Shown: in pieces, positions 706 to 19,137 of the stretch
Position numbering within the stretch: position 1 is the first letter of the stretch
Layout of the letters: each line of letters starts with the position of its first letter
Virus record (IMG/VR): IMGVR_UViG_3300032213_001977
Span: 1 to 20,735 of that record
Length of the DNA: 20,735 nucleotides
Reading direction: 5' to 3' (one strand)
Source of the DNA: a virus
Notes under the pieces: model-generated
The model's input: only the letters and a program-made list of their open reading frames with translations
Told to the model about the DNA's origin: nothing
The model's database searches: none
Position numbers and translations under genes: made by a program

Positions 706-1030
706 TTTCAATTCTTTCCATATGTTCTTTGAGATTGTGATTTGTTACGTTGTCTAAAAACTTAATTAAAAACATAGATGCAATACTAGCATCTTCTCCA
801 TTAAAATGCAACCTAGTGCCGCCTTCGCCGTTTTGATGATGATGACACCACTTGCCACGTCCGTATGCCACATATACATTAGAATGTTCGCGGCCTCGAT
901 GATTCCAATATGTATCTACTTTCTGGCGACCACCTATTTGTTCGTACCAATCTATAATAGATTTAGTTAATTCATCGACGTCTATCCATATAGGATAAAC
1001 TACGGTACAGCCTGGGGGTAGTGCTATCAT
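692..1030 (-). CDS. Small conserved phage protein, unknown function
   Basis: This 112-residue protein starts at an ATG that overlaps the stop of the cupin gene as ATGA, so the two are translationally coupled. I do not recognise a catalytic domain. Visible features are an N-terminal hydrophobic stretch with PPG, a central segment rich in aromatic and basic residues ending in K-W-C-H-H-H-Q-N-G-E-G-G (around residues 60-71), and an acidic C-terminus. The CHHH cluster could bind metal, but nothing else supports an enzyme assignment. It is the second gene of the transcript started by the promoter at 1508-1536. Confidence 0.75.
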   Translation of the reverse strand: MIALPPGCTVVYPIWIDVDELTKSIIDWYEQIGGRQKVDTYWNHRGREHSNVYVAYGRGKWCHHHQNGEGGTRLHFNGEDASIASMFLIKFLDNVTNHNLKEHMERIENEYY

Positions 1031-2896: not shown

Positions 2897-3646
2897 TTAT
2901 CGGGGTGCAAAGTCCTGTTGTAATTTAATATTGTCGAAAAACTCTTTCTTAGTGCCTGCATCATCTTTAAAAGCACCTTTTAGCACTGTGGTCTGTGTTA
3001 AACTACTATGTGCCATAATTCCTCGATTTTCGCAACACCCGTGTACCGCTTGAATGTAAACGCCTACGTCTTTCGCGCCAGTGGCTTTTTGTATTTCCCT
3101 AGCGATATCATTAGCCAGTTCCTCCTGGAGAGTGCCTCTTCTTGAACACCACTGTGCAATGCGTGTGTACTTCGATAAGCCAATAAGTTTCTCAGCGGCA
3201 ATAATACCAATATAAGCAACGCCAGCAACGGGTTGGTGATGATGACTACACATACTACGCAACTCACTACGAACAACCAACATGCCTTCATATCTATCCT
3301 CACTGTCATTTGGAAATGCTGTACAATCTGGGGGCGAATCATATCGGCCTGCCATTATTTCATTAAAGTACATTTTTGCAAGTCGCCTTGCTGTACCTTT
3401 ACTGTTAGGATCGTTTTCGCGATCAATAAGCAAACGGTCAAGCACTAGTTCGAATGCTTCTGTTGCTTCGTTAATGAGTTGATCTTTAGTCTTTTCATCA
3501 ACATATTCACTAATATTGTCGCCGGCCCAGAACCTTTTGTTATCACGTTTCATCTTTGCGCGAAGATAATTACCCAAGTATTTTTCTTCCCGATATCCGC
3601 CATCGCCGTACATGGCGTCTAATCCTGTTTCTTTTTTGTCTGTCAT
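2897..3646 (-). CDS. folE: GTP cyclohydrolase I
   Basis: This 249-residue protein has the family signature in full. C133-S-H135-H136-H, then G-L-S-K-Y-T-R-I-A-Q-W and R-R-G-T-L-Q-E-E-L, and H202-G-C204-C-E-N-R-G-I are all present. By family knowledge C133, H136 and C204 bind the zinc, and H135 and H202 act in catalysis. The usual Glu of C-E-H-H is Ser here. The enzyme opens GTP to 7,8-dihydroneopterin triphosphate, the entry to folate, biopterin and 7-deazaguanine (preQ0, queuosine) synthesis. The N-terminal 50 residues are longer than in compact FolE enzymes. The ATG follows the upstream stop by 1 nt, with a weak GGA. Phage folE is often linked to preQ0 synthesis, and a T-fold QueD-like gene is in the same operon. 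Confidence 0.93.
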   Translation of the reverse strand: MTDKKETGLDAMYGDGGYREEKYLGNYLRAKMKRDNKRFWAGDNISEYVDEKTKDQLINEATEAFELVLDRLLIDRENDPNSKGTARRLAKMYFNEIMAGRYDSPPDCTAFPNDSEDRYEGMLVVRSELRSMCSHHHQPVAGVAYIGIIAAEKLIGLSKYTRIAQWCSRRGTLQEELANDIAREIQKATGAKDVGVYIQAVHGCCENRGIMAHSSLTQTTVLKGAFKDDAGTKKEFFDNIKLQQDFAPR

Positions 3647-3647
3647 A

Positions 3648-4268
3648 TTAATCCGTAATAGTAAATTGTCTTAGATCAGCATATTCTACATGTTTAGGGG
3701 TAGGTTTGTCAACCCTTATTCCTTTCATTAATGCCAATCCCCATTCTGCTTCTTCGGGTGTTGGTTTATAGTGATAACCAACTTTAAATTCTTTTTGAAC
3801 AGTCCATGGTCTATTATTTAGGTCTCGACCATCGTATCGCATTAAAATTATTGATTCATATGCAACTTTATCATCTAATAGAATAGCACCACCACGGCCA
3901 ATATGCAAAGGTTTATCGTGTCCAAAGCTTAAACATTGCATCATTCCGGGCCGATACATATTTTCTTCTAGACGGCGAGCACTATCCCAAATACGGGTAA
4001 GTTCGAACTTATATTCTCCGACCCATTGTTGTCTATGCGGTAAGTAATCGGGGAAATAATCGTACTTGATATTCAACTTATGCATTAGCATTGGAATACT
4101 AATGTAAGTGTAAGGTGTGAAACTGACTTCTTTCACATTATCGTATCGTAGACAAAGCTCGATAGCGTGAGTACAGCAATCAGTCATGATTGCATACGGT
4201 GCACCTGTGAAATCTGCCAGTTCTTGTTCAAATTGATAAATTCTATCGAATGCGTTTAAGGAGTTCAT
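3648..4268 (-). CDS. Short DegT/DnrJ/EryC1-type PLP aminotransferase-like protein
   Basis: This is a 206-residue protein if started at the ATG at 4268; a GTG at 4274 is in frame. The N-terminal part (F-E-Q-E-L-A-D-F-T-G-A-P-Y-A-I-M-T-D-C-C-T-H-A-I-E) matches the start of DegT-family sugar aminotransferases (E ... F ... V-x-S-G-T-x-A-L). A central W-D-S-A-R-R-L-E-E followed by L-S-F-G-H-D-K-P-L-H-I-G-R-G-G-A-I matches the D-x-A and S-F ... K ... G-x-G-G blocks, where the Lys carries PLP. Family members are usually 360-400 residues. This one lacks a segment between the two blocks and most of the C-terminal domain. It could be a minimal enzyme or a binding protein. It overlaps the glycosyltransferase gene by 26 nt, consistent with a shared sugar pathway. 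Confidence 0.65.
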   Translation of the reverse strand: MNSLNAFDRIYQFEQELADFTGAPYAIMTDCCTHAIELCLRYDNVKEVSFTPYTYISIPMLMHKLNIKYDYFPDYLPHRQQWVGEYKFELTRIWDSARRLEENMYRPGMMQCLSFGHDKPLHIGRGGAILLDDKVAYESIILMRYDGRDLNNRPWTVQKEFKVGYHYKPTPEEAEWGLALMKGIRVDKPTPKHVEYADLRQFTITD

Positions 4269-5340
4269 TTGCACTAAAAAAATTATCTGTTAAATGTTTT
4301 GACAAGACTTTTAACTGTGGCAGTCGATTTTCATAATGATCCATGTGTTGTGTAATAGCAAAACATAGATTAGATCGTTTATCAATGTATTGATCCCAAT
4401 TTTCAGTCCAGTCTGACGGATATTTAAAAATGTCAGGGTACATTTCTTTGTAGCTTAATCGATCGGGCACCATGGGGATGGCGTCTACTAGCGCACCTTC
4501 ATAGCAACCTATACCCAGTGTTTCTTGAAGACTGCAACTAAACACAATCTTAGCACGGCCTAATAATTTGTGATATTCGTGTTTGTCTAATTGTTGATCC
4601 TGACACACAACAAATTCATATTGCGGTAATTGTTTAGCTAAGTCACGGAAGATCTCAACTTGTTTCTCTGGTGCGATACGATGTGGGAACAAGATAAGAT
4701 CGCGCTTGGGACTGGTGTTATAGTTCTCCAAGGCATCTCCCATATATTCCATGGGCCAACCAGTACGCACTATTTTGCCGCTATCATAACGTTCGGCCCA
4801 GTCTTCTTCGTACCACGGGTTTTCTGTAGGGTAACCATCTTCTAATAGTTCGTCAAAGAATAACTTAACATGGAATTCTGTGGCAAAGTAGTTGTGATCA
4901 AATGCGTGGAAGAAACTCTTTTCAGCATGCCTGACCCATCTCTTTTTACCTACAAGACGTCCTAAGAAGTCTTGTGGGTCGTAACTGCCAGCATGCCAAA
5001 GTCCGTGTGTAATTACTGGAATGTTCAGTAACTCGCTCATATACTTTAAGTTGATAATGCCAGGATGCCAAGCATCTGTAAAGATAAAGTGGTCACCAGC
5101 AACCACTTTACCGTCGGTGAAGAGTCTACCCATTTGCTCAACTTGGCTAGCCTTGTAGATGTTGGTGCCGCCAAAATTAAGAAAGGCACCAGGAGTAGTA
5201 GCATTTGGGATATCAGTAGGACCTGAAATAACATGGACATCATGACCTGCTTCCTTTAGTAAATTAGGTACATGCGATTTCCATTGGGCAGTGTACCTAG
5301 TTTCAACTGGCTCCAAATCAACAACAAAAACTTTGGCCAT
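4243..5340 (-). CDS. GT-B-fold glycosyltransferase (GT4-like)
   Basis: This 365-residue protein has two-domain GT-B character. The N-terminal domain reads M-A-K-V-F-V-V-D-L-E-P, then L-L-K-E-A-G-H-D-V-H-V-I-S-G, the usual first strands of retaining glycosyltransferases. The C-terminal domain has L-F-P-H-R-I-A-P-E-K-Q (around residues 217-227) and S-C-S-L-Q-E-T-L-G-I-G-C-Y-E-G (around 270-284). In GT4-type enzymes this E-x-x-x-x-x-x-x-E region binds the nucleotide-sugar. It transfers a sugar from an activated donor, but the acceptor is unknown: DNA, a virion protein or a surface glycan are all possible. There is no signal peptide or membrane segment. The ATG follows the previous stop by 2 nt with no clear ribosome binding site, so translation is likely coupled. 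Confidence 0.8.
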   Translation of the reverse strand: MAKVFVVDLEPVETRYTAQWKSHVPNLLKEAGHDVHVISGPTDIPNATTPGAFLNFGGTNIYKASQVEQMGRLFTDGKVVAGDHFIFTDAWHPGIINLKYMSELLNIPVITHGLWHAGSYDPQDFLGRLVGKKRWVRHAEKSFFHAFDHNYFATEFHVKLFFDELLEDGYPTENPWYEEDWAERYDSGKIVRTGWPMEYMGDALENYNTSPKRDLILFPHRIAPEKQVEIFRDLAKQLPQYEFVVCQDQQLDKHEYHKLLGRAKIVFSCSLQETLGIGCYEGALVDAIPMVPDRLSYKEMYPDIFKYPSDWTENWDQYIDKRSNLCFAITQHMDHYENRLPQLKVLSKHLTDNFFSANELLKRIR

Positions 5341-5566: not shown

Positions 5567-6010
5567 TTAAATTTTAATACGTTGAATAGGCTGGTGAGTC
5601 TCATATTTAATAAGAGCGCCGTTTTCACCATCTTCAGAAACTTCAATCCAAACTACTCGTCCTGGGTATTTTGCAGTAATTTGAATATAAAGGTCATCGG
5701 ACATCATTTCGCATGATTTGTAATCAAGCTTAAGCGTTCCATCTTTGTAAAGATTTTCTAACCATCGTTTAAATTGAATAAACTCTATATCCCGATCATT
5801 ATGTAGTACATTAATCCAAACTTTGAAATGGAAAATATGTCTGTGCGGGGAGCCTAAGAAGCTTACATCATATTCGTCTCCGGTTGCTAGCATGGGATCT
5901 GTTGCTGCTGCCGGATAACAATGAATTCCCTCTTTACGAAAGGTTACCCAAATTTTTCTTTCTGCGCGATCTATAATAGAATTTGCTTGTTCACGATTTT
6001 CTTGATTCAT
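5567..6010 (-). CDS. T-fold protein resembling QueD/6-pyruvoyl-tetrahydropterin synthase
   Basis: The start is taken as the ATG at 6010 (MNQENREQ, 147 residues), because GAGGA lies about 7 nt before it and the longer reading would run into the previous gene. The order of motifs follows the PTPS/QueD family. E-G-I-H30 gives a first His. H56-R-H58-I-F-H-F corresponds to H-G-H-N-Y. D-I-E-F-I-Q-F-K-R-W-L resembles G-M-V-I-D-F-x-x-L-K. L-D-Y-K-S-C resembles L-D-H, and W-I-E-V-S-E-D-G-E-N-G resembles the final V-x-V-x-E. The zinc histidines therefore look kept. The catalytic Cys four residues before H-x-H is Leu, and the gap between first and second His is longer than usual. QueF-like or pterin-binding roles are possible. 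folE lies further along the same operon. Confidence 0.5.
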   Translation of the reverse strand: MNQENREQANSIIDRAERKIWVTFRKEGIHCYPAAATDPMLATGDEYDVSFLGSPHRHIFHFKVWINVLHNDRDIEFIQFKRWLENLYKDGTLKLDYKSCEMMSDDLYIQITAKYPGRVVWIEVSEDGENGALIKYETHQPIQRIKI

Positions 6011-6014
6011 TATT

Positions 6015-6545
6015 TTATTCCTCGGACTCTTTAGGAAAAACGGGAGTATCACCGATATAGTCTTTCCAGTCAGTATATACTCGACGTTTTAATAATTCAT
6101 TAAGTGGATAACACCATACTCCTGGGTTAGTGTCCCCCCAAGTGTTATCGTCGATTTTAACTGTGGCATGATAATTATATAATTTAATATATGGAATTTT
6201 AACACTGATCATAGGAATAAAATTATTATATTCGCACCATGCTTCTTCATGCAAATCTTTACAGTATTGTACATCAAAATCCAGCGTAACAAAATAATTT
6301 TTAATTAGTAAAGGTTTGATCATTTCATCCCATTGTACCCAATCATAGGAATTGACGGGATGAAAACTTTGACTAGTCCCAAAATAAATGTGTCGAATGT
6401 TATGTTCTTGGGCCAATTTAGTAATTTCGTCTACAGATTTAATGCCTACTACAAACAAGGTCTTTTCACCCTTCATAATAGTATTTTCTACTTCTGTACC
6501 AACAAAATAGTCTACTTGCTGCCGTGCATCTGTATTAAGAGCCAT
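6015..6545 (-). CDS. Conserved phage protein of unknown function
   Basis: I place the start at the ATG at 6545 (MALNTDARQQVDYFVGTEVE, 176 residues), 11 nt inside the end of the dehydrogenase gene. The longer reading would overlap that gene by over 130 nt. It has alternating strands and helices: T-L-F-V-V-G-I-K-S-V-D-E-I-T-K-L-A-Q-E-H-N-I-R-H-I-Y-F-G, then Y-F-V-T-L-D-F-D, then F-I-P-M-I-S-V-K-I-P-Y-I-K-L-Y-N-Y and T-N-P-G-V-W-C. This looks like an alpha/beta fold. I have the impression of similar proteins in marine myophages beside the T-fold gene, but I know no function. The fixed pairing suggests the two products work together. Confidence 0.75.
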   Translation of the reverse strand: MALNTDARQQVDYFVGTEVENTIMKGEKTLFVVGIKSVDEITKLAQEHNIRHIYFGTSQSFHPVNSYDWVQWDEMIKPLLIKNYFVTLDFDVQYCKDLHEEAWCEYNNFIPMISVKIPYIKLYNYHATVKIDDNTWGDTNPGVWCYPLNELLKRRVYTDWKDYIGDTPVFPKESEE

Positions 6546-7440
6546 TATTCTTCCAATAAATGTAGCCTCTGCTGTATCCAGCGGGCCTGTTGTTGCTGTC
6601 TCTGAACGCTTGTTGCCATTCAGTGTCTCTATTATAACCTTTTGTCCAGAAACTGTCAATATTGATATCACCGTTGGTTATCCAATATTCAGCTTGTTTC
6701 ATACAGTCATAGAATTTGTTTGTTCTTGGACTAGGAAACATCATGGTACAGGCTTTCCAAAGAAGTGTACCAAAATCAGTTGATACTTGCTTTTGCGAAC
6801 CAAATACTACTAATGCTTCATCGTTTACTATAGGGCAATCGAACACATACGTGGTGCTACTCAAATCTATAACAACATCATATGTACCAGAATAGTCGTT
6901 GCTTAATTTATCCTGCCAAAGTTCTTTGTTCGACTTGCCTACTACTGTAATTTCGAAATCTAAATGATTTAACTTAATGGTATTATAAGCAATCCAAGCA
7001 AGAAACCCAGATCCAAGTATTAATAATCTTCGTCCTGGCCCTGCTCGTTCAGCAATCTCCCGTAAGGGTTGGTGAATAACATTAATTCCGCAGGCCACAG
7101 GCTCTAATATATAGCGTGGGTGTGCTTCGGGCACAGGAACATATTCTCGATGTCGTACATTATAGTAATCTGCATATGCAGGTTCTCCCCGTGTAGCAAC
7201 ATAGTCTCCGACATTTACGTCTGTGATATTAGCACCGATGTCAATGACACAGCCCAGTCCTTCGTGCCCTTGCATATGCAAAGGCAGCGGACCGAAATCA
7301 CCGTTCATCATATCAATATCGCTGCGGCATAAACCTGTCATAACGCTACGCACACGAATTTCGTCAGATGTCAATGATGGGAGTTCATATTCAGATTCGG
7401 TAAATTCACCGTTACTGACAGTTTGTAGTATACGATTCAT
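6535..7440 (-). CDS. Zinc-type alcohol dehydrogenase-like (MDR) oxidoreductase
   Basis: This 301-residue protein has the medium-chain dehydrogenase layout. C38 (G-L-C-R-S-D-I), H59-E60 (Q-G-H-E-G-L-G) and E113/C117 (L-E-P-V-A-C-G) are the expected catalytic zinc region. The four-Cys structural zinc loop near residues 85-110 is absent, as in several non-alcohol MDR groups. A Rossmann segment L-L-I-L-G-S-G-F-L-A follows at about 138-147 and binds NAD(P). It is shorter than the usual 330-380 residues. It overlaps the Gfo/Idh gene by ATGA. MDR and Gfo/Idh enzymes are known as fused bi-domain proteins in sugar and surface-polysaccharide clusters, so a joint reaction on a sugar substrate is a fair inference. 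Confidence 0.8.
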   Translation of the reverse strand: MNRILQTVSNGEFTESEYELPSLTSDEIRVRSVMTGLCRSDIDMMNGDFGPLPLHMQGHEGLGCVIDIGANITDVNVGDYVATRGEPAYADYYNVRHREYVPVPEAHPRYILEPVACGINVIHQPLREIAERAGPGRRLLILGSGFLAWIAYNTIKLNHLDFEITVVGKSNKELWQDKLSNDYSGTYDVVIDLSSTTYVFDCPIVNDEALVVFGSQKQVSTDFGTLLWKACTMMFPSPRTNKFYDCMKQAEYWITNGDINIDSFWTKGYNRDTEWQQAFRDSNNRPAGYSRGYIYWKNNGS

Positions 7441-8535: not shown

Positions 8536-9675
8536 TTATGCTCCTTGAGTGAGTTTATAAAAATTTTGATTTCGGATCCGATCTACTGTTGCGGTAAATT
8601 CAATAAATTTAGCTCGCAGAAGTTCGTCGCTGGTATTTAAAATTTTAAGAGTGTTTTCTAATATGTCTATGGCCAATGGCGGGTTGTCAGTTACCTTGGA
8701 TAACAATTGTATAGCATTTTGAATTTTAATCCTAGCATTATGGCTTAGTTGGGCATCTAATACTGAAGGATTTAAATATTTCGGCTGCATACACATATGA
8801 AACATGAGTTCCAACGGCCCTTGAGCTATTTTTTTAGAATTAACAAAAAATGACACCAGATTATCGATGTCCAGCACACTATAAGAAGATAGTACAGTGT
8901 TAAATGCCACACTATGTCTTCTGGACAAAATGTCTTTAATATTTTTTTCAATTTGAGCCCACACACTACCGTATCTTATATATTCTGCATACGGTCCTAC
9001 TCCATCTATACTAATAGTCCAATGTACAGTTTGAAATTGAGATAATAAAGATAGCCATTGCGGGTTAATCACGCTGGCATTAGTAGTGATCATAATTTCA
9101 CAATCAATTCTTCCTAAATGTAATAACTCAGTTAATATTTTAATATTGTCTTTGATTAAAAGAGGTTCTCCACCGGTAAAATTTATTCTTTTAACTGTGG
9201 GCAATATGTCTTTAAGATCTTGTGCAATTTCTGAATAAGCATTATTTTTATTCACTAGCGAATAAAACGCTTTTAATTCAGGATGTTGGTCTATTTCATT
9301 AATAATTTTAGTACTAAATGATGGCTCGCAAGTTCTACAAGCAAAGTTACAGAGATTACTATACCTTAGATCTAAATATTCTATTTGCGATTTGATGTTT
9401 GTTGGGGTGAGGTCTTTATAGAACTCCACCGACTCTTGTCTGGTACTTGTAAAGCCTTTGCTTTCCATGTTAGTACAGTGTCGGCAGTTACTATGCAATT
9501 TGTTATCTAAAATAGACTGCCTAACAGAATTGATTAAATCAGATTTAAAAAATTTTGACGGACTAGTCGATTCTAACTGCAAACCCTGGCAACAAGTCTT
9601 AATGCCATCTGGTACAATAAACTGATGTACCCATGGTAAAGGGCACCAAGTGTCAGACGTCTTGTTCGAGTTCAT
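8536..9675 (-). CDS. Radical SAM protein with extra N-terminal Cys cluster (twitch/SPASM-like)
   Basis: In this 379-residue protein, C109-N-F-A-C113-R-T-C116 is the radical SAM CxxxCxxC motif holding the 4Fe-4S cluster. F-T-G168-G-E170-P is the GGEP strand that binds S-adenosylmethionine, and T-T-N-A-S with W-T-I-S-I-D-G-V follow the expected barrel order. Before the core lie C11 (C-P-L-P-W-V-H), C28-C29 and C64-x2-C67, which resemble the auxiliary-cluster Cys found with twitch or SPASM domains, but placed N-terminally. The substrate is unknown. It is longer than QueE (about 220-250 residues) and lacks its short form, so I do not call it QueE. The ATG lies 23 nt inside the end of the TGT-like gene, so the two are translated together. 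Confidence 0.8.
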   Translation of the reverse strand: MNSNKTSDTWCPLPWVHQFIVPDGIKTCCQGLQLESTSPSKFFKSDLINSVRQSILDNKLHSNCRHCTNMESKGFTSTRQESVEFYKDLTPTNIKSQIEYLDLRYSNLCNFACRTCEPSFSTKIINEIDQHPELKAFYSLVNKNNAYSEIAQDLKDILPTVKRINFTGGEPLLIKDNIKILTELLHLGRIDCEIMITTNASVINPQWLSLLSQFQTVHWTISIDGVGPYAEYIRYGSVWAQIEKNIKDILSRRHSVAFNTVLSSYSVLDIDNLVSFFVNSKKIAQGPLELMFHMCMQPKYLNPSVLDAQLSHNARIKIQNAIQLLSKVTDNPPLAIDILENTLKILNTSDELLRAKFIEFTATVDRIRNQNFYKLTQGA

Positions 9676-11227
9676 CTAATTTAGATTCGTCTAAATCGCT
9701 GTCGTCTCGGTGAAAAGTTTCCAGATCTTCCTGTGTAAACAAGTTATTAAACATTGTTCCAGAATTCACAGTCTTCTTGCCAACAGCCCCACGAGTACCC
9801 ACAATGCTCATCCAATATTTGTTATAGTGTTCAATGATTTCCTCAGCCTTGCCACGGTCACTAGTAGCAAAAATATCATTTACAATGTCTCTAAAAAAGT
9901 TTCGATCATATTGTCTAAAACTCTTTTTGTCGGCAGTACTAGATACTAACATTTCAGGATACTTGCCTGAGTCGTATTGACGATTAGCTTCCTGAACTGC
10001 ATGTATATGTGTCCACACATTATGACCCATTTGCAGAGTGTAACTAAAACTGTCCCAGCTAGTGCGACCTTCCTTGCCAATTTTATTTAAGTCTCCGGGC
10101 TTGTAATAACATACATCGTTAATTTTCAATCGTTCGCTGATGGGACTTTGTAAAAATGTATCAAAGATTTTATCTTGTAATACTGCATCACGGAATGGTT
10201 GTGTATCTGTGGCATATTTTTTATTATCTACACTGGGCTGCATTTGATAACTCCATTTGGCTCTGTCTGGAGTAACCACGTCATAATAAATTTGACCATT
10301 TGCAGTAGCTAAAAATGGACTAGCACAATCAAACGATATTGTAAAGTTTTCATTATGATATTTGCGTACTGCACGTTGGACATCTGTTAATAAAGTAGCC
10401 CACTCTAATTTACTAGTACCGAGGAAGTGCATCCAGTCATGCAAACCTGGTTCTAGTAGACCATCAAAACGCAATGCCACAAGTCTACGTAATAGCAAAT
10501 GAACATCACACATATTTTGACCACCCATAGCCCAACCGTTAAATGGTTGACTGTATTGTTTAGGATCGCAGTATTTTTTCATACGATCATACCAGTCATC
10601 TGCTTCTGTGTGATTTTCGCCCTGGAGGACATTTAAGAATTTACAACGACCTGTTCGATTGGCCATAAAATAATCGTTGTTTATATATGTGCCCTGAACT
10701 GCTTCGGCATAGGTACTAATACCTGTGGCTTTTTGTCCCGCAGGGCTACGAGCGACCCACGCAGGGATATCTAAAATCATACCCCTGTCCATGTAAGCAT
10801 CCATCCATGCAAGAACTTGTTCACGTTTCTTTTGTGCTTTGGGGCAAGCTGGATCTTTCCAATTACCTTCCCATACGCCTTTACCAATTTGAAATCCGCC
10901 ACTGTCGCCTAGGACGAATGTGTTAGGATCACGGTTACGGACCATATCCTCTTTGGGATCAAATTTGTTAGTGTCTAAGTTGGCATGACCTGCACTGTAC
11001 AATGCCCATTTATAATGAAAATACCCTTGTTTATTATTAAGCCAATTTAGTCCTTCAACGCCGTTTTCAAAATCTGCAGGCAAACGCTGTGCATCAATGT
11101 AAGTGGAGTCGTGACGTTGCTTGCCTACATAAGTGGCGTAGAAACTACTTAGTGCAGGCAAAAAAACGGCATAGTCATTTTGCTTGCTAGTTAAGTCATC
11201 TATTGTATTTGACTTTTGTTCTTTCAT
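9653..11227 (-). CDS. tRNA-guanine transglycosylase superfamily protein, DpdA-like
   Basis: This 524-residue protein shows the TGT motifs in order. D108-S-G-G-F-Q matches the TGT D-S-G-G-F-Q, where Asp acts in base exchange. I-L-D153-I-P is followed by N-V-L-Q-G-E-N (199-205, the V-Q-G strand) and G-W-A-M-G-G-Q (231-237, like Y-A-I-G-G). H-F-L-G-T-S-K (267-273) is like L-M-G-V-G-T-P. F-D300-C-A-S-P-F matches M-F-D-C-V-L-P with the nucleophilic Asp. The usual CxCxxC...H zinc site after it is not visible. Phage and bacterial DpdA proteins of this superfamily exchange guanine in DNA for a 7-deazaguanine such as preQ0. A tRNA role is possible but less likely for a 524-residue phage form lacking the zinc Cys set. 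The start overlaps the clamp stop as TAATG. Confidence 0.75.
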   Translation of the reverse strand: MKEQKSNTIDDLTSKQNDYAVFLPALSSFYATYVGKQRHDSTYIDAQRLPADFENGVEGLNWLNNKQGYFHYKWALYSAGHANLDTNKFDPKEDMVRNRDPNTFVLGDSGGFQIGKGVWEGNWKDPACPKAQKKREQVLAWMDAYMDRGMILDIPAWVARSPAGQKATGISTYAEAVQGTYINNDYFMANRTGRCKFLNVLQGENHTEADDWYDRMKKYCDPKQYSQPFNGWAMGGQNMCDVHLLLRRLVALRFDGLLEPGLHDWMHFLGTSKLEWATLLTDVQRAVRKYHNENFTISFDCASPFLATANGQIYYDVVTPDRAKWSYQMQPSVDNKKYATDTQPFRDAVLQDKIFDTFLQSPISERLKINDVCYYKPGDLNKIGKEGRTSWDSFSYTLQMGHNVWTHIHAVQEANRQYDSGKYPEMLVSSTADKKSFRQYDRNFFRDIVNDIFATSDRGKAEEIIEHYNKYWMSIVGTRGAVGKKTVNSGTMFNNLFTQEDLETFHRDDSDLDESKLDELEQDV

Positions 11228-11958
11228 TACTTGGTCTGTGCTGGCAAAATATAATTGTACTCTGCGATACCGCTGTCAACAGTGATCATTGCAGCACCTT
11301 CGTCGCTGATCTTAAAAGTCTTATCGCCTGGTAAGCTGAGGATGCTGATAACTACAGCCACTGGCCATGCCCATGCTTTGGATAATTTTCCACTAACACC
11401 TGATTGGAAAACAAAATTACCTGCGTGACTACTGTGGTCACCGAAGTAAAATTTTAAATCGTTGTTTTCTGTTTTAGCAATAAAGTTATTTTCTTCGCTG
11501 TTTGCACTAGCTTGAAATTTAAGACGCTGAATACTAGCTGCGCTGGGAGTAATATCTATGTTCCATGCAACTTGTTTCATACGCACAGTTTTAAGTTTGT
11601 CGTTGACAATTTCAGCACTCATAAAACGATAATCGTTTTTAAAATCGCCAGTTTTATTTTCGAAATGAACTCCTACTGGAACTGTTTCGTCATTCTTATT
11701 TTGAGTACTAACAGTAATAACGGCATTTTCTTTATATTCTGGAATGTTAAGCACTGTGTTTAGCTTACCTAAATTTGGCATACCAAAAGTTCCGATAAAG
11801 TCTGCAATTGGTCCTTTAAATTTAGCTTGTAGAATAACACTGCGATTTTCTGCAATTGCTTCTAATATAGTTTCATTTTCTGTGCCTACAATCTTAACTA
11901 GATCAATAACTCCTAGTCCATGAGTATGTTGCACGATGTCTAATAGGTGGTCTTTCAT
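11227..11958 (-). CDS. 45: DNA polymerase sliding clamp (gp45-like)
   Basis: This 243-residue protein is close to the length of T4 gp45 (228). I recognise the second half as the marine T4-like clamp: Y-F-G-D-H-S-S-H-A-G-N-F-V-F-Q, then W-A-W-P-V and L-P-G-D-K-T-F-K-I-S-D-E-G-A, and the ending A-E-Y-N-Y-I-L-P-A-Q. The clamp forms a trimeric ring on DNA, tethers the polymerase and, in T4, is needed for late transcription. The ATG at 11958 has a good CGGAG ribosome binding site. A 45-nt gap before it holds promoter-like boxes, so it may be transcribed on its own as well as with the polymerase. Confidence 0.85.
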   Translation of the reverse strand: MKDHLLDIVQHTHGLGVIDLVKIVGTENETILEAIAENRSVILQAKFKGPIADFIGTFGMPNLGKLNTVLNIPEYKENAVITVSTQNKNDETVPVGVHFENKTGDFKNDYRFMSAEIVNDKLKTVRMKQVAWNIDITPSAASIQRLKFQASANSEENNFIAKTENNDLKFYFGDHSSHAGNFVFQSGVSGKLSKAWAWPVAVVISILSLPGDKTFKISDEGAAMITVDSGIAEYNYILPAQTK

Positions 11959-11978: not shown

Positions 11979-12007
11979 AGTGTATATAAGTTATTTAGAA
12001 AAATCAA
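11979..12007 (-). promoter_or_regulatory. Promoter candidate upstream of the clamp gene
   Basis: Two readings overlap in this short gap. The first is a weak sigma-70 pair, TTGATT (12007-12002), 17 bp, TACACT (11984-11979). The second is a CTAAATA box at 11998-11992, similar to late-promoter motifs proposed for marine T4-like phages. Either would leave a short leader carrying the CGGAG ribosome binding site of gene 45. The matches are imperfect and the region is AT-rich. Confidence 0.4.
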
Positions 12008-12963
12008 GTCCTGCGGTGAATAATTTCACCCATTGACTGACCGGCTTTTACCGTTTTAAGATCGCCTGGCTTTTTAACTTTAATCCAGTAAAATCCGGAT
12101 ACTAAGTCGTTAGTATCCAAAATTTCAAGTCCTGTTTCTTGACAAATTTTAATTAGTAATTCTTTAGTCATCCAACTCTTAAAACCAGTTTCAGCATAAA
12201 CAGCAGCATTACTAAATTCACAATTATTATAGCTAAACATCATTATGCCACCTGGTCGCAATAAATTAAAACATTGTTCTAAATATAATTTAGTTTTATC
12301 CAAAGGAAAAAAGTCAAACACTTGCCAGGAAAATATAAACCCAAATTGATTTTGCGGAAGTATGCTTAAATCGTCCTTGGGAACTCCATGCCAGCCTGTT
12401 AGATATGTTCTTAATCTTCTTTGATATTCTATAGGAAACTTAGATTTCGTAGATTCTATAAATTCTGGATGAATGTCGACAACGTATAACGGATCTCCAG
12501 CCACAATAAATTCGGTCCATTGTCCATCTCCTGGTCCAATTTCTAAAGCTGGATATTTTGGATTAGTGTATCTCCGTATGTCTGTAATTATAGTTTGTTT
12601 AACATCGTCGTTACATATTACTGTTCTGTATTGTCTTTCGTTATGAACATCAGTTTCGCTAGTATATTCAATACCGTTTATCAGATAACCTTCTTTGTAA
12701 AAGTCTTTAACTTTTTCTTCGATTGAATTTTCAGTAAACGCAATTAAGTCGGCAATTAGTTTGTCTGTGTGTTTTATCTGTGAATCCAATTGAATCAACT
12801 GATTGGCAAGATTAGTTCTTAATTCTCCAAATACAAAAGAACTCAGCATATTATCTACATATATTGATGTTTCTTTAAATTTAGATTCGATAAAAGTTGA
12901 AAAAGTCGGAGATTTAAACTTCAACAATTGTTCTTTTATTCTTACTAGTTCGCTTATTTTCAT
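12004..12963 (-). CDS. Class I SAM-dependent methyltransferase with N-terminal helical domain
   Basis: In this 319-residue protein the first 90 or so residues are helical and charged, with no motif. From about 138 the methyltransferase core begins. A-L-E-I-G-P-G-D-G-Q (139-148) is motif I, which binds S-adenosylmethionine. D163 ends strand 2 (Y-V-V-D-I-H-P). F-G-F-I-F-S-W-Q-V-F-D-F-F-P is the motif IV region, and L-L-R-P-G-G-I-M-M-F is the post-motif strand typical of small-molecule and sugar methyltransferases. It has no N/DPPY motif, so it is unlikely to be a DNA adenine methyltransferase. It sits between the polymerase and clamp genes with an 18-nt gap and no clear ribosome binding site. 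Confidence 0.8.
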   Translation of the reverse strand: MKISELVRIKEQLLKFKSPTFSTFIESKFKETSIYVDNMLSSFVFGELRTNLANQLIQLDSQIKHTDKLIADLIAFTENSIEEKVKDFYKEGYLINGIEYTSETDVHNERQYRTVICNDDVKQTIITDIRRYTNPKYPALEIGPGDGQWTEFIVAGDPLYVVDIHPEFIESTKSKFPIEYQRRLRTYLTGWHGVPKDDLSILPQNQFGFIFSWQVFDFFPLDKTKLYLEQCFNLLRPGGIMMFSYNNCEFSNAAVYAETGFKSWMTKELLIKICQETGLEILDTNDLVSGFYWIKVKKPGDLKTVKAGQSMGEIIHRRT

Positions 12964-12981: not shown

Positions 12982-15648
12982 TCAGTCTGAAAAGTTAAAC
13001 AAAGTATCAAATGTACTATTGATGTCTGTGTTTTCTGAAATTTCCCATTTCAATACACCTAATAAATTTTCTACTTTTTGGTCCACAATGCCTTCTTCCA
13101 TCAGGTTGTCGTCAAAAGGCAAATCTTTAAACCATTGAGGGATATGTGTTTCGTCTGTGGGATAAGCTACGCTGGTATATCCTAGTGGATTATTTTTCAG
13201 TTTGCAAACAATAACTTTCATGCCATCTACGATTTGCATACTATAGTTGTCACTGTGCATACGACGCAGATTGTTCCAGTTCATAGCCGCTCGTACATGA
13301 CCGGGCATGTTTGCTTTACCTTGTTTGGCTTCATCGGCAGTATACTTGGTTAAGTTATTAACTCGTTTAGGAGTTCCTTTTTCCCATGCCGGCCGCTCTT
13401 GAAATTTAATTTTAAATTCTTTTACTTTTTCGATAATAGATTCACGTTCAGCACCAGTAAGTACATCCAATAAAATTTCACTTAAAAAGTCTTGTACTAC
13501 TTTTGGAGTATCGCTTCTTTTTAAGTCTAGGCCCATGGCTTTTACTTTGCCCTCTGCGCCTTTGACATCTAGCCGTTTGCCTTCTTTGTCGTAGATAAGA
13601 ACCGCATATCGCTTTTTCTTAATAAACAAACCAGAAATGGCCACAAGCTCTCGACCACCTTTAATAATAGATCCATTTTGTCGGGGGCAATGAAATGCTC
13701 GTTCCATGAAACCTGGAAAGCTTTGATTAACTTGTTCTCCAATACTGTCGTATAGTTGAACAGCAATGTCTTTGTTCCATTCCATACGACCAGCTTCAAC
13801 ATCTGCTTGCACGGCCGGCCATGCACTGAAATAAACAGAATCAGTGTCACCATAGATAATAGCATCTCCCACATGATCATATTTGCCGAATATACATTCG
13901 TTGACAAAACTGTCCATGTGTTTGGCAATAGCTCGGCCAGTTAGTGTAGTGCTTTGACCGATTCTGTTATCGAAAAATCTGCATCCTGGATTAAGAATAG
14001 CGCCGTACAAACTGTTCAAATTAATTTTCTTAACCAGTTGTCGTTTATCCCAGTATTCCTGATCTTCGGGCGTGGCGGATTCTTTAAGTTTGGCCTGCAT
14101 TTGTTTACGCTCGGCATACCATCTTTCCAATAAACCCGGAATAATACCTTTATGCTCGCTGGTAAAAATAGTGCCGTTAGCACTTAAAATCCACGGCTTA
14201 TTACTGTCAAATATAATACGCCATACATCGGCGGCACTGCATACATCGCTGGTGCCATCTGCTTCCCAGTCAATGGTAATTTCTACTCCGGGATCTCCAC
14301 GCATTACTGCTTCGTATTCCAAGCTACCAAACAATCCTTCCCATGCAGACGCAAAGCTATCTCCCCCATCTATTTTTTCTTTAATGTAACGATCTGTCAT
14401 TACAGGACGTAATTGTCCTACGATTGTTTCTGGCCCCATGTTAAGAGATCGGATGGCCGAAGGATAGAGGCTGTTGATGTCAATTGCTCCGATATATTTG
14501 TGCATCCCGACTTTGGGATAAGCAACATAGGCACCTGCCGCTTGGGTGTCTCCATCTTCTTCTCTGCCCTTCCTGTTAGGAACGACCAATCCTTGACTGT
14601 GTGCTTCATTGATAATTGCCTGTTCTGTGGTTGCAACTGCGCCCATTGTTGTCTGCAATAACACCGTGTTATCGTGAGCAATGGTATTCGCCAAATCCAA
14701 GAAACGTAGCTTCTTGTCTAGTTTAGCAAGCAAGCGAGTGTCTTGCCTGTTATATTCTAAAAATGTTTCAAAGTCTTTATTATATAGTTGATCTAATGTA
14801 CCTTCGTAGGCTGTCTTACGTTCTTCTAATTCATATTCGCCAATAGCGTCCAGACTATAGCTGTGACGTTCTTCGTAGGTATACTTTCGATACAATTGCA
14901 TATAGTCCAGATGAACTCTGCCAATTAAATCAAAAGTAATATTAGTGGCGCCGAATCGATCAAATTCTCGCTGTTTGGGAAATTGTCCCCATAGGCAAAG
15001 TCTTCGGGTATCGTCTTTGCTTAATACTCGAGTAATACGGCCAACAGTATAGGGAATATCATATCCTTCGCTGTTCCACCCACTTAAGATGTCTGCGTCA
15101 TCGATGAGATTAAGAAATGTATCTAACATATCTTCTTCTCTGTCGAAAATGTAACAGTCACTAAACTTAGCGCAAAGTTCCTCCGCAGTTTCCCAGCTCA
15201 TTGACTTTGGGGGGATAGCCAGTGTTACTAGTTTATCTAACCAATCTAAATAGATACTAATAGCAGTGATTTTGTTAAATGGGTCCGAGACTGGACTAAA
15301 TCCTCGCTGCGGATCAAAGTCGACTTCAATGTCGAAGAATGCCGTCTGTAACTTAGGCGGTTCAGCACCGAGATAGTTTTCTTCAAGGCATCTAAATACA
15401 GGTTTAAAATCGCTTTCCCATAGTTTTTTACCATTCTGCATCCGTAATTCTTTTTGAAATTCCTTACCATTGCGGGTGGCAAATCTGGTTACAGGAGTGC
15501 CGTATATAGTTCTATGTTTTCCCTTAGGGTCATCATAATAAAATATATAGTTGACTGGATATTCCTTATATTCTCGAGAGCCATTGATACGCTCTACAAC
15601 ATGAATACGATCTTTTTGTTTATCAAATAATGCGTCTACGTAACTCAA
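12982..15648 (-). CDS. 43: Family B DNA polymerase (gp43-like)
   Basis: This 888-residue protein compares with 898 in T4. The proofreading domain has F-F-D106-I-E108 (Exo I), G-W-N-S-E-G-Y-D197 (Exo II) and Y-N-R-Q-D303 (Exo III). The polymerase domain has A-I-D390-I-N-S-L-Y-P-S (motif A), K-K-I-N-L-N-S-L-Y-G (540-549, motif B) and Y-G-D-T-D-S (599-604, motif C). All catalytic acids are present, so it should replicate DNA with proofreading. The C-terminal T-L-F-N-F-S-D resembles the short clamp-binding tail of T4 gp43. The start is a TTG at 15648, overlapping the upstream stop as TTGA. A stop codon lies directly upstream in frame, and the next sequence (SYVDALFDKQKDRI) is what I expect for this polymerase group. 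Confidence 0.96.
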   Translation of the reverse strand: MSYVDALFDKQKDRIHVVERINGSREYKEYPVNYIFYYDDPKGKHRTIYGTPVTRFATRNGKEFQKELRMQNGKKLWESDFKPVFRCLEENYLGAEPPKLQTAFFDIEVDFDPQRGFSPVSDPFNKITAISIYLDWLDKLVTLAIPPKSMSWETAEELCAKFSDCYIFDREEDMLDTFLNLIDDADILSGWNSEGYDIPYTVGRITRVLSKDDTRRLCLWGQFPKQREFDRFGATNITFDLIGRVHLDYMQLYRKYTYEERHSYSLDAIGEYELEERKTAYEGTLDQLYNKDFETFLEYNRQDTRLLAKLDKKLRFLDLANTIAHDNTVLLQTTMGAVATTEQAIINEAHSQGLVVPNRKGREEDGDTQAAGAYVAYPKVGMHKYIGAIDINSLYPSAIRSLNMGPETIVGQLRPVMTDRYIKEKIDGGDSFASAWEGLFGSLEYEAVMRGDPGVEITIDWEADGTSDVCSAADVWRIIFDSNKPWILSANGTIFTSEHKGIIPGLLERWYAERKQMQAKLKESATPEDQEYWDKRQLVKKINLNSLYGAILNPGCRFFDNRIGQSTTLTGRAIAKHMDSFVNECIFGKYDHVGDAIIYGDTDSVYFSAWPAVQADVEAGRMEWNKDIAVQLYDSIGEQVNQSFPGFMERAFHCPRQNGSIIKGGRELVAISGLFIKKKRYAVLIYDKEGKRLDVKGAEGKVKAMGLDLKRSDTPKVVQDFLSEILLDVLTGAERESIIEKVKEFKIKFQERPAWEKGTPKRVNNLTKYTADEAKQGKANMPGHVRAAMNWNNLRRMHSDNYSMQIVDGMKVIVCKLKNNPLGYTSVAYPTDETHIPQWFKDLPFDDNLMEEGIVDQKVENLLGVLKWEISENTDINSTFDTLFNFSD

Positions 15649-15935
15649 TTAATCATCATCCTTATTAGTCCAACTGCGTCGATGGTGGTTAACAATAGAT
15701 AGTTTGCTAGCATCCCAAATGACCGCCGAGTCCAAGCAGCCCAAGCGTACATAGCACAACCGCTAATCCAAATTGGATAAAGAACAATAAGCGGTGGGTT
15801 GGGGACGGTGACTGCCATAGTGATACTACAGCCAATACTAAGCCCCCAAGCAAGCAACTCGACAGCAAAACGTATAGGATTGCTGTTCCAATCATTTTTT
15901 ATCCAAGTAACAGTATTATACAACAAATCGTTCAA
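15645..15935 (-). CDS. Small membrane protein, unknown function
   Basis: This 96-residue protein has about three hydrophobic segments: F-A-V-E-L-L-A-W-G-L-S-I-G-C-S-I-T-M-A-V (around 23-42), L-I-V-L-Y-P-I-W-I-S-G-C-A-M-Y-A-W-A-A-W (around 49-68) and a final A-N-Y-L-L-L-T-T-I-D-A-V-G-L-I-R. The layout and the closing N-x-x-L-x-x-x-D-x-x-G-L-x-R loosely recall small PnuC- or SWEET-like transport proteins, but it is too short for a firm call. The start must be the TTG at 15935: no ATG is in frame before the upstream stop codon, and the TTG overlaps the stop of the DsbA-like gene as TTGA. Confidence 0.7.
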   Translation of the reverse strand: MNDLLYNTVTWIKNDWNSNPIRFAVELLAWGLSIGCSITMAVTVPNPPLIVLYPIWISGCAMYAWAAWTRRSFGMLANYLLLTTIDAVGLIRMMIN

Positions 15936-17423: not shown

Positions 17424-17990
17424 CTATTTTGTTCCAATTACCAAATACGCATCATATTCAGTTTCGGGATCTTCGAACGTTCTCTGACCAGAAAACAAAA
17501 TTTTGGTTAATGGATAAGTAGAAGAAAATTCTTCTATGCTATTGAATTTATGCACAGCACCTGGATCATTGTTTCTTCCTGATAAAAGCACCATGGTATC
17601 AGAGGGAATACGTTCAAACCAATCATAGCCGGAAATGTTAGTGCAACTAAAATTAACTACTAACCCATCAGGGCCTAGGCGTCTATAATCTAAACGGTTA
17701 GCGTCTTTGTGCATGGATTTTATCCTAGTGTCTTTTTGCAATGTTGCAAGTTGACCACTGACCTTTAACATGTTTTTATTTTTTTCAACATTAATGATTT
17801 CGTCGAATTCAAATCTAGGATCCATGCTGAGTAACAAGCCAGCATTTCCGTACCAACTACCTAATATGTAAATAGTATCAAACTTATTTTTAATCTCACT
17901 GAGCTCAGTGAATGCCCAAAATTTGTTTTCTGTCAGATTGCCGCCTAGACTGCCTTTTAAAGAAAGAGAATTTACTTCGTTGATTCTCAT
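17424..17990 (-). CDS. Small methyltransferase-like Rossmann protein
   Basis: In this 188-residue protein, residues 39-51 (T-I-Y-I-L-G-S-W-Y-G-N-A-G) look like motif I of class I methyltransferases (G-x-x-x-G). I-I-N-V-E-K-N-K at about 66-73 gives the acidic end of strand 2. L-V-V-N-F-S-C-T-N-I and P-S-D-T-M-V-L-L-S-G-R follow as later strands. The core is short, with no target-recognition domain, so the substrate is unknown; similar small proteins are common in marine T4-like phages. The ATG overlaps the desaturase stop by 1 nt (TAATG). It is the last gene before the control region at 17326-17423. Confidence 0.65.
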   Translation of the reverse strand: MRINEVNSLSLKGSLGGNLTENKFWAFTELSEIKNKFDTIYILGSWYGNAGLLLSMDPRFEFDEIINVEKNKNMLKVSGQLATLQKDTRIKSMHKDANRLDYRRLGPDGLVVNFSCTNISGYDWFERIPSDTMVLLSGRNNDPGAVHKFNSIEEFSSTYPLTKILFSGQRTFEDPETEYDAYLVIGTK

Positions 17991-18697
17991 TACAGTGTCC
18001 TTATTTTTAATAAACCTGTAAATTTAAAAATTTGTATCCAAATCCAACCCATGTCAACTTCAAACCAACGACGACTTAATTTAGGATTTCCAGGTTCTAA
18101 ATGATGATTATTGTGAAGCTCTTCACCACCAATGATAACCCCTATTGGACTAATGTTAGTACTGCGATCTTTAGAATTACCATTACGATATCCCCACCAG
18201 TGTCCGAGTCCGTTAACTACACCTGCTGCCCAGAAAGGTATCCAAATCATTTGTATGGCCCAGATTAACAATCCCCACCAGGAAAAAAATAGTAAATTTA
18301 AAGCCAATAACAAACTAACACCTAAACGACTGTGTTTAGCATAGACATTTTTTTCTAACCAATCATCAGGAGTTCCTACGCCAAATTGATTTACCATGAC
18401 GTTGTCTTTACTGGCTTGATGATATAAGAATGCTCCACCAAACAACACGGGGATAATTCCAAATATATATGGACTATGGGGATCGCCTTTTACATCTGTG
18501 TCTTTGTGATGCTTGCGATGTATGGCCACCCATTGTTTAGTTACCATGCCTGTGGTTAACCACAACCAGAATCTCATTAAATGACTTAGTACAGGACTAA
18601 AAGTTAATCCTCGATGTGCTTGTCCTCGATGTAAAAAAACAGTAACGCATACAATGGTAATATGAGTTGCTATAAGAAGATATAAAAATTCAGCCAT
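17990..18697 (-). CDS. Membrane fatty acid desaturase (delta-9 type)
   Basis: This 235-residue protein has the three His boxes of the acyl-CoA/acyl-lipid desaturase family: H23-R-G-Q-A-H28, H60-R-K-H-H64 and H195-N-N-H-H199, which bind the di-iron centre. G-H-W-W-G-Y-R-N at about 165-172 and the later S-T-N match the conserved H-x-W-G block. Hydrophobic stretches at 4-22, 78-92 and 125-162 fit four membrane passes. It would introduce a double bond into membrane lipid acyl chains with oxygen. It is shorter than typical bacterial forms (about 270-300) but all His are kept. Phage-encoded desaturases may adjust host membrane fluidity during infection. The ATG is 5 nt after the Dps stop, with no clear ribosome binding site. 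Confidence 0.9.
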   Translation of the reverse strand: MAEFLYLLIATHITIVCVTVFLHRGQAHRGLTFSPVLSHLMRFWLWLTTGMVTKQWVAIHRKHHKDTDVKGDPHSPYIFGIIPVLFGGAFLYHQASKDNVMVNQFGVGTPDDWLEKNVYAKHSRLGVSLLLALNLLFFSWWGLLIWAIQMIWIPFWAAGVVNGLGHWWGYRNGNSKDRSTNISPIGVIIGGEELHNNHHLEPGNPKLSRRWFEVDMGWIWIQIFKFTGLLKIRTL

Positions 18698-18702
18698 TGA
18701 GC

Positions 18703-19137
18703 TTATTTTAAACTGGCTCTTAACATCCAGCTGTGTTTATCATGTGCGTCCATGCGTTCTGCCAGGAAGTTACTGATGCCATGTTTTCCTTCACGTTCTG
18801 CTAGATCGTAGACCATTTTAAATAACTTGGCAGTTTTATCGCTGTCGGCTAATAGTTCTTGAATCATTGTCATAGCAGGCTGAACTTCGATTTCATCATT
18901 GACCTGTGACAGCATACTAAAACGAGTATAGCTACCTGGAGTATAGCTGCCTAACTTGCGAATGTTTTCAGCAAATGTATCAATGCTGCCATATACTTCT
19001 TCGTAGATACCGCCGAATAAACTGTGATATTCTTGAAAGTCTGGTCCTTCTACATTCCAGTGATAGAAATGTGCTTTTAGGTAAAAACTAAACTCTGTAG
19101 CAAACGCTATCTTCATTGCTTTAATTAATTCATCCAT
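18703..19137 (-). CDS. dps: Dps-family ferritin-like protein
   Basis: This 144-residue protein has the Dps core: A22-H23-F-Y-H26-W-N-V-E-G-P, then Y-H38-S-L-F-G-G-I-Y-E-E, and D53-T-F-A-E57-N-I-R. The spacing H26-H38 (12) and D53-E57 (4) equals that of the known ferroxidase ligands. The acidic ligand four residues after the second His is Gly (G42). Dps proteins form 12-subunit shells that oxidise and store iron and shield DNA from peroxide. There is no long Lys-rich N-terminal tail, so direct DNA binding is less likely. Dps-like genes occur in some phages, where protection of DNA or iron supply has been suggested. The ATG is 1 nt after the upstream stop. Confidence 0.9.
   Translation of the reverse strand: MDELIKAMKIAFATEFSFYLKAHFYHWNVEGPDFQEYHSLFGGIYEEVYGSIDTFAENIRKLGSYTPGSYTRFSMLSQVNDEIEVQPAMTMIQELLADSDKTAKLFKMVYDLAEREGKHGISNFLAERMDAHDKHSWMLRASLK

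Follow-up and report, generated by a model that had tools for sequence, protein, structure and literature searches.

The DpdA3 and DpdA4 subfamilies of phage DNA guanine transglycosylases were reportedly named by Cui et al. (2023), who are also said to have found 2'-deoxy-7-carboxy-7-deazaguanine (dCDG) and 7-deazaguanine in phage DNA, and to have concluded that phages insert 7-deazaguanine after replication. We know of no answer to date to the question of how DpdA gets to its guanines. Phage DpdA and its role are known, and passages of one study (PMC6884629) describe DpdA2 as lacking the conserved His196 of DpdA and give modification levels per G of about 0.11% deoxy-preQ0 (dPreQ0) in Vibrio phage nt-1 and 32% in Escherichia phage CAjan. 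For the Pseudomonas jumbo phage PA5oct, a function has already been proposed in print: relevant passages of a 2021 comparative study credit it with a deazaguanine synthesis/incorporation system (PMC7824862). Here we describe a DpdA-like gene in the virus record IMGVR_UViG_3300032213_001977, of which the whole stretch of 20,735 nucleotides (positions 1 to 20,735; hereafter the window) was analysed. We consider it probable that this gene encodes a DNA guanine transglycosylase from a new clade related to DpdA2, tethered to the sliding clamp and inserting a base that derives from 7-carboxy-7-deazaguanine and is perhaps glycosylated. The new points, which we infer from sequence and structure, are the separate clade, the clamp together with the tail peptide, and a gene module of phages without QueC. 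The gene and its two catalytic codons are as follows:

9653..11227, minus strand: putative DpdA-like DNA guanine transglycosylase of a new clade, 524 aa (open reading frame with ATG start, predicted fold, DpdA2 profile link, tree)
10904..10906, minus strand: codon of D108 in DSGGFQ (D89 of Escherichia coli Tgt, aligned via DpdA2; invariant in the family alignment)
10328..10330, minus strand: codon of D300 in ISFDCASP (D264 of E. coli Tgt, aligned via DpdA2; invariant in the family alignment)

The first-pass annotation, made from the letters alone, had marked this open reading frame (ORF) as a base-exchange enzyme with the motif order of the tRNA-guanine transglycosylase (TGT) barrel. The frame is exact and the motifs stand where it placed them (D108-S-G-G-F-Q113, V200-L-Q-G203, G231-W-A-M-G-G236, L269-G-T-S272 and F299-D300-C-A-S-P304); judging by the fold matches described below, their order is not due to chance. 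Both catalytic aspartates are kept, as it had claimed: D108 and D300, like D153, Q202 and G203, are unchanged in 43 of the 43 aligned family members, all of which share 67% identity or more with the window copy. We take the counterpart of D300, D264 of E. coli Tgt, to be the nucleophile. The annotation had also found no visible CxCxxC...H zinc site, and the CxCxxC motif is indeed missing from the sequence and from the family alignments, zinc loss being read from sequence only. By motif order, the possible remnants are limited to C373 and H402-N403 (compare CDCYTC...IHN in E. coli Tgt); C373 is invariant across six diverse window-type members, and H402 is replaced by Q in Vibrio phage 2.275. 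CxCxxC is missing from all seven DpdA2 proteins aligned as well, and its absence is no peculiarity of the window enzyme. Searches of Pfam, PHROGs and NCBIfam gave no family match to the window enzyme, the single Pfam match being at chance level, and sequence searches of the PDB with the single protein and with the six-member alignment returned no TGT, only chance matches. The 3' end of the gene is overlapped by a gene for a twitch-domain radical SAM protein (8536-9675; NF033640, 289 bits, cut-off 170), which occurs in few related loci only.

An AlphaFold2 model of the window enzyme, built from 43 family members, has a mean predicted local distance difference test score (pLDDT) of 84 and a predicted template modelling score (pTM) of 0.84. 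Foldseek matched it to five PDB chains at E <= 0.001, every one a TGT (best 1p0d, E 2.1e-6), and all 50 matches listed by VIA-align are TGTs with Z of 17.2-18.4 (2ash_B: Z 18.4, root-mean-square deviation 4.4, 301 aligned residues). Matches in a viral structure library at E <= 0.001 include R9TGF0 of Vibrio phage nt-1, equal in length to the published DpdA2, and a TGT of Achromobacter phage Motura; the top match there is a 596-aa protein, the same length as the Vibrio 2.275 copy. Profile-profile comparison of six diverse window-type members with seven DpdA2 proteins gave a probability of 96% (E 3.4e-9, 193 columns), and ten DpdA2 and window-type proteins have in common a D, DSGG-Q, M..D.P, a Gly at the QG motif, H.LG and IS.D. 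The DpdA2 profile matched E. coli Tgt with a probability of 88%, whereas the window type alone matched the E. coli Tgt profile weakly (probability 17%, E 0.0015). ACP17 DpdA2 itself scores 29 bits against the tgt_general profile, below the cut-off of 47.6. Against the link to DpdA2 stands a first profile test, of 43 close relatives versus nt-1 DpdA2 alone, which gave a weak match; tblastn of nt-1 DpdA2 against the window family found no match at E 0.1, nor did the reverse search at 0.01. The comparison of hidden Markov models with TGT and DpdA families, suggested in the first-pass annotation, came out divided, with a profile link to DpdA2 and no match to curated Pfam or NCBIfam TGT profiles, while structure prediction agreed with the TGT barrel throughout, giving TGTs only among the matches listed and no better non-TGT barrel. 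Membership of the window enzyme in the TGT superfamily is supported by fold and by the profile link to DpdA2.

In a maximum-likelihood tree, the window type (98/98), to which the proteins of PA5oct/Paride, Vibrio phage 2.275 and Phosso belong, and DpdA2 (100/99) form separate clades, and CAjan DpdA1 and E. coli Tgt lie on long branches whose placement is unsure. The NCBIfam profile of bacterial DpdA, NF041059, does not match the window enzyme. The earlier suggestion of a new DpdA subgroup is supported accordingly: the window type is probably a new DpdA2-related subfamily, set apart from CAjan DpdA1, DpdA2 and NCBIfam bacterial DpdA, with DpdA3 and DpdA4 sequences outside the comparison. That the enzyme is a new member of DpdA3 or DpdA4 as named by Cui et al. 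(2023), and no new subgroup, is unlikely in our view. When 50,697 phage records were searched by tblastn, the window protein and the 2.275 copy gave the same 13 records only, though the collection includes QueC-bearing Campylobacter, Cellulophaga and Haloarcula phages, which presumably carry DpdA3 or DpdA4. These 13 are eleven Pseudomonas jumbo-phage records of the PA5oct group (including Paride), Vibrio phage 2.275.O and Sinorhizobium phage Phosso, and all of their homologues are annotated 'hypothetical protein'. At least 599 stretches in IMG/VR match the window enzyme, and the counts of loci below use the best 80 of these. Exact peptide patterns of the PA5oct and 2.275 copies found nothing in viral_contigs; that of the Phosso copy found two loci.

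The enzyme gene directly follows a predicted sliding clamp in a replication neighbourhood:

11227..11958, minus strand: predicted PCNA-type sliding clamp (phrog_12062, without annotation; AlphaFold2 pLDDT 92.5; Foldseek 6e49_C, E 1.9e-11; VIA-align Z 18.6)
12004..12963, minus strand: methyltransferase-like protein between clamp and polymerase (Pfam Methyltransf_23, E 2.5e-7)
12982..15648, minus strand: family-B DNA polymerase (Pfam DNA_pol_B, E 1e-37)

The stop codon of the clamp gene and the start codon of the enzyme gene overlap as TAATG. By sequence, Pfam and a PDB profile search gave nothing for the clamp and PHROGs only phrog_12062; fold alone showed its PCNA type, all 50 Foldseek matches listed for the model being PCNA chains. 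A clamp homologue lies upstream of the enzyme on the same strand in 77 of the 80 IMG/VR loci (the gap runs from -3 up to 1913 bases and is no wider than 60 in 31 loci), and in the three others the locus edge is less than 500 bases upstream. PA5oct and Vibrio 2.275 also have clamp homologues just upstream of the enzyme (37% and 32% identity to the window clamp). The PA5oct homologue, EST35_0314 (L082:8939-9685), is annotated as a virion structural protein on the basis of electrospray ionisation tandem mass spectrometry (ESI-MS/MS), and the PA5oct DNA polymerase gene (L082:3632-8858) comes in two parts, separated by a gene that carries the annotation Hef-like homing endonuclease. The protein encoded ahead of the Phosso homologue ('virion structural protein', L084) was considered as a clamp and rejected, having no similarity to the window clamp. 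Phosso has its clamp homologue elsewhere, beside the polymerase and the genes for phrog_17812, glycosyltransferase and FolE treated below, and is not counted as having the clamp-enzyme neighbourhood. A 177-aa 'glycosylase' of Phosso (L150:6011-6544) sits between clamp and phrog_17812, roughly in the slot that the DpdA-like gene occupies in other phages. The methyltransferase-like protein is variable among relatives (22-95% identity).

Near its C-terminus, the enzyme carries a peptide that resembles the tail of the polymerase:

9737..9751, minus strand: F493-N-N-L-F497, putative sliding-clamp-binding peptide (likeness to the polymerase tail; residues 480-517 have pLDDT < 50)
12997..13011, minus strand: F-D-T-L-F in the polymerase C-terminal tail, STFDTLFNFSD (from sequence)

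Past residue 480 the enzyme model is of low confidence, save for a short helix (489-496) bearing T-M-F-N-N-L-F, and conservation of T491 and F497 reaches 90% or more in the 43-member alignment. The tail is a short hydrophobic-acidic peptide like the polymerase C-terminus, as expected of a sliding-clamp client. Across the 80 IMG/VR loci, 73 of the 80 enzymes have [FY]..[LF]F within their last 50 residues, and all 72 of the 72 polymerases have it within their last 30. The enzymes without it are L043, which is truncated at the end of its contig, and L048, L051, L056, L057, L076 and L077. Some enzymes stop right at the motif, as the polymerases do (L062 ...FGNLFEEV, L035 ...YNKFFE). Loci L035 and L038 have diverged clamps (32 and 36% identity to that of the window), and their polymerase tails, FNNFF and FANFF, stand with enzyme tails YNKFF and YNNFF. 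The polymerase and enzyme tails are, respectively, NTDLFDW and NNDLFGW in Vibrio 2.275, and FDSLFGW and FNSLFDV in PA5oct. Clamp-binding-like tails are also present in four of the seven DpdA2 enzymes examined, the DpdA2 and polymerase tails being TTLDELFE and PSLDDLFE in ACP17, NSLDDLFG and SSLEDLFGW in Marzo, and ASLDSFFD and STLDDFFS in Synechococcus phage BUCT-ZZ01 (ZZ01); X1 DpdA2 ends in QSLEELFG. For comparison, T4 gp43 ends in SLDFLFG and T4 gp55 in SLDFLYEAND. According to passages of PMC2988020, the hydrophobic-acidic C-termini of T4 gp43, gp55 and gp33 are interchangeable and bind the clamp, and an internal version works too. By likeness to these peptides, the tail of the window enzyme would bind the clamp.

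Several observations weigh against this assignment. The tail was first spotted by eye, and the search patterns were set after the tails had been seen. In the window enzyme the motif is not terminal but lies 27 residues before the end. DpdA2 of nt-1 and KVP40 is without such a tail and that of pf16 ends in VTLDLMCA; no clear tail is present in Phosso (EGLF) or L086/L087 (GGIFS), and none in a third TGT-like type. A 96-aa family encoded upstream of the polymerase (window 15645-15935) fits the loose pattern in 21 of 52 copies. When the pairing of tails within phages was compared with permutations, 28 of 40 positions were identical (p 0.001) over eight lineages, of which the window and L035 are kin, but p was only 0.019 when permutation was confined within enzyme type; pf16 and nt-1 (no enzyme motif), X1 (polymerase tail not fetched) and KVP40 (same as nt-1) were left out.

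The peptide might then be no tether at all, its likeness to the polymerase tail arising by chance or via another shared partner. A motif so short, absent or unclear in several DpdA proteins and often fitted by another small family, would suit that explanation, which the rarity of the motif elsewhere and the eight-lineage permutation make improbable. Just 7 of 530 other conserved ORFs of at least 100 aa have [FY]..[LF]F, five of the seven belonging to one phosphoribosyltransferase family. A count over 12 named phages and one IMG/VR contig, 13 loci in all, found [LFYN][DEN].[LF]F at the end of 9 of 246 frames of at least 150 aa, all but one of them DpdA or polymerase: five DpdA proteins, three polymerases and one glycosyltransferase-like protein of ZZ01. 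This last protein, the second of its kind in ZZ01, is encoded beside DpdA2 (L118:1653-2996; E 3.4e-5, under the cut-off) and ends in SLEDFFND (compare the ZZ01 polymerase tail); from its sequence it is a possible clamp-tethered DNA glycosyltransferase.

Clamp and tail also bear on the substrate. The nearest solved folds are tRNA enzymes, and a phage TGT might act on tRNA as the host Tgt does, aiding translation; some phages have 7-deazaguanine synthesis genes without DpdA, and a role on host tRNA has been proposed in passages of PMC6884629. We nevertheless think a tRNA substrate highly improbable here, given the absence of CxCxxC, the coupling of the enzyme gene to the clamp and the clamp-binding-like tail, and given that the window enzyme is by sequence nearest to DpdA2, of which the nt-1 representative comes from a phage with modified DNA (PMC6884629, in part). 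A DNA rather than a tRNA role for the window enzyme is supported by its context of clamp, polymerase and 7-deazaguanine genes together with the tail.

Of those 7-deazaguanine genes the window has FolE, which lies downstream of the enzyme with three further conserved genes:

2897..3646, minus strand: GTP cyclohydrolase I, FolE (Pfam E 3.8e-39)
4243..5340, minus strand: glycosyltransferase-like protein (its X1 homologue is over the Pfam cut-off; 36 of 36 loci)
5567..6052, minus strand: phrog_17812 protein, conserved, His/Glu-rich (phrog E 8.6e-36; 36 of 36 loci)
6015..6671, minus strand: conserved protein of the same module (34 of the 36 loci reaching far enough; ACP17_402, 30%, E 1.4e-13)

The glycosyltransferase and phrog_17812 are both present in all 36 IMG/VR loci that extend 5.5 kb downstream of the enzyme, and the 6015..6671 protein has a relative in ACP17, encoded immediately ahead of DpdA2. 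FolE and QueE occur together in 9 of 13 records searched, the four without being fragments of 57-72 kb, and PTPS/QueD in 6 of 10; it counts against the proposed function that the window record (20.7 kb) shows only FolE of this pathway. Vibrio phage 2.275 encodes QueF, YhhQ, QueC and FolE directly downstream of the enzyme, and PA5oct has QueE nearby. The 2.275 gene right after the DpdA-like gene (L083:11723-12835) has a match to Amidoligase_2 slightly below the cut-off (E 1.8e-4), and its product might act on the modified base.

FolE, QueD and QueE without QueC would lead to 7-carboxy-7-deazaguanine, unless the host supplies QueC. Five of 12 phage genomes, those of Vibrio 2.275, nt-1, pf16, Marzo and KVP40, have a QueC match over the cut-off; no such match was found in PA5oct, Phosso, ACP17, ZZ01, X1 and the contigs G001 and G002 (157 and 158 kb, of completeness not established). 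The glycosyltransferase family and phrog_17812 occur in exactly those 7 of 12, a split that crosses both enzyme types and whose exact chance odds are 1 in 792 with kinship ignored. Both genes flank or adjoin DpdA2 in ACP17, X1 and ZZ01 and follow the window-type enzyme in PA5oct. Because QueC-less phages keep FolE and QueE and carry the glycosyltransferase and phrog_17812, the inserted base may derive from 7-carboxy-7-deazaguanine and be decorated; because a glycosyltransferase is present, the decoration could be a sugar.

The exclusion of QueC is not strict. Phage D479 combines phrog_17812 with a partial match to the QueC family that exceeds the cut-off (32.8 bits, positions 133-201), and sub-threshold QueC matches occur in X1 and one IMG/VR contig. 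D479, I1_18, Ahp1 and Bakedbeans are four further phages with phrog_17812 beside FolE, and three of the four encode a third TGT-like protein (DNSGFE or DNSAFE) within a few genes; phrog_17812 may thus be a general 7-deazaguanine pathway protein. Since I1_18, Ahp1 and Bakedbeans have phrog_17812 without QueC but gave no glycosyltransferase by tblastn at 1e-8, the two genes do not always go together. Weak glycosyltransferase matches were seen in Xanthomonas phages PhiXhv-12/15/16 and Erwinia phage Ep032. The motifs of phrog_17812 (H..., HRH, CE) had suggested a QueD/T-fold protein, a candidate rejected when its profile was negative against four phage QueD proteins (probability 1.8%, 16 columns); no PDB chain matched it.

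The base might instead be ordinary preQ0 or preQ1, if the phages rely on host QueC and use the glycosyltransferase and phrog_17812 for something different, for example surface sugars. QueC is common in hosts, as control genomes show, Vibrio phage 2.275 encodes QueC and QueF with the same enzyme type, and the window genes for DegT, Gfo/Idh and an alcohol dehydrogenase would suit sugar metabolism. The occurrence of both genes in exactly the QueC-less genomes, across two DpdA types, and their position around DpdA2 in ACP17, X1 and ZZ01 argue for the other side, and we rate an ordinary base as a serious contender at somewhat less than even chances. The broader proposal, which we hold as tentatively, is that several lineages (the window family, PA5oct, Phosso, ACP17, X1 and ZZ01) swapped the QueC route for the glycosyltransferase and phrog_17812 and make a glycosylated form of 7-deazaguanine in their DNA, with 7-carboxy-7-deazaguanine as its precursor. 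A clamp-held enzyme would install it at the fork, and in some phages the glycosyltransferase would be tethered as well, as the ZZ01 tail SLEDFFND might indicate.

Elsewhere in the window are genes for a fatty acid desaturase (17990-18697) and a ferritin-like protein of Dps type (18703-19137). Phosphoribosyltransferases are encoded both in the window (190-711) and in the PA5oct cluster (L082:13973-14407), with 24% identity.

We propose the following sequence of events for a clamp-tethered DpdA-like enzyme, in which clamp binding and the identity of the base are what we infer. Through its tail peptide the enzyme would attach to the sliding clamp behind the fork, where D300 would attack C1' of a deoxyguanosine with the assistance of D108. 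Guanine would leave and a 7-deazaguanine base fill its place, made, more speculatively, from 7-carboxy-7-deazaguanine with further decoration, possibly by a sugar. The purpose would presumably be to shield phage DNA from host nucleases, and the polymerase-like tail suggests that phage DNA is disguised in step with its replication. Clamp, tail peptide and the pattern of glycosyltransferase, phrog_17812 and QueC go beyond the first-pass annotation. In the open-access literature, with subscription papers outside its scope, we found nothing linking DpdA with a sliding clamp (passages of PMC10893344 included) and no glycosyltransferase acting on 7-deazaguanine in DNA.

If true, a clamp-binding tail directly answers how the enzyme reaches its guanines. 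It could also help to explain differing modification levels, though it cannot be the sole factor, because nt-1 DpdA2 (0.11%) and CAjan DpdA1 (32%) are both without a clear tail. The contrast between QueC and the pair of glycosyltransferase and phrog_17812 hints at an as yet undescribed base in culturable phages, namely PA5oct, Paride, ACP17, ZZ01 and Phosso.

Of known systems, phage DpdA2 (nt-1 YP_008125322 and kin; passages of Hutinet et al. 2019, PMC6884629) has the same order of barrel motifs, also without CxCxxC, and is encoded with FolE, QueD and QueE; the window enzyme is about 60-130 residues longer and has 15-17% identity to ACP17 DpdA2. Bacterial Tgt (E. coli, Zymomonas) shares with it the fold, both catalytic Asp and the QG, LG and D-C motifs, whereas the window enzyme is without CxCxxC and sits in a DNA-replication context. 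CAjan DpdA1 is like it in function, by analogy, and its gene also lies near a polymerase and processivity factor, but this protein (306 aa, ending in MELF) has no BLAST link to the window family. In T4, alpha-glucosyltransferase co-purifies with gp45 and beta-glucosyltransferase does not, the ratio of the two sugars being attributed mainly to expression (passages of PMC13216743). Unlike the window case, the T4 clamp clients named in such passages include no base-exchange enzyme; gp43, gp55, gp33 and alpha-glucosyltransferase have a hydrophobic-acidic C-terminal peptide like the tail of the window enzyme. If the tail does bind the clamp, two unrelated hypermodification strategies, T4 glucosylation and 7-deazaguanine insertion, would share one platform.

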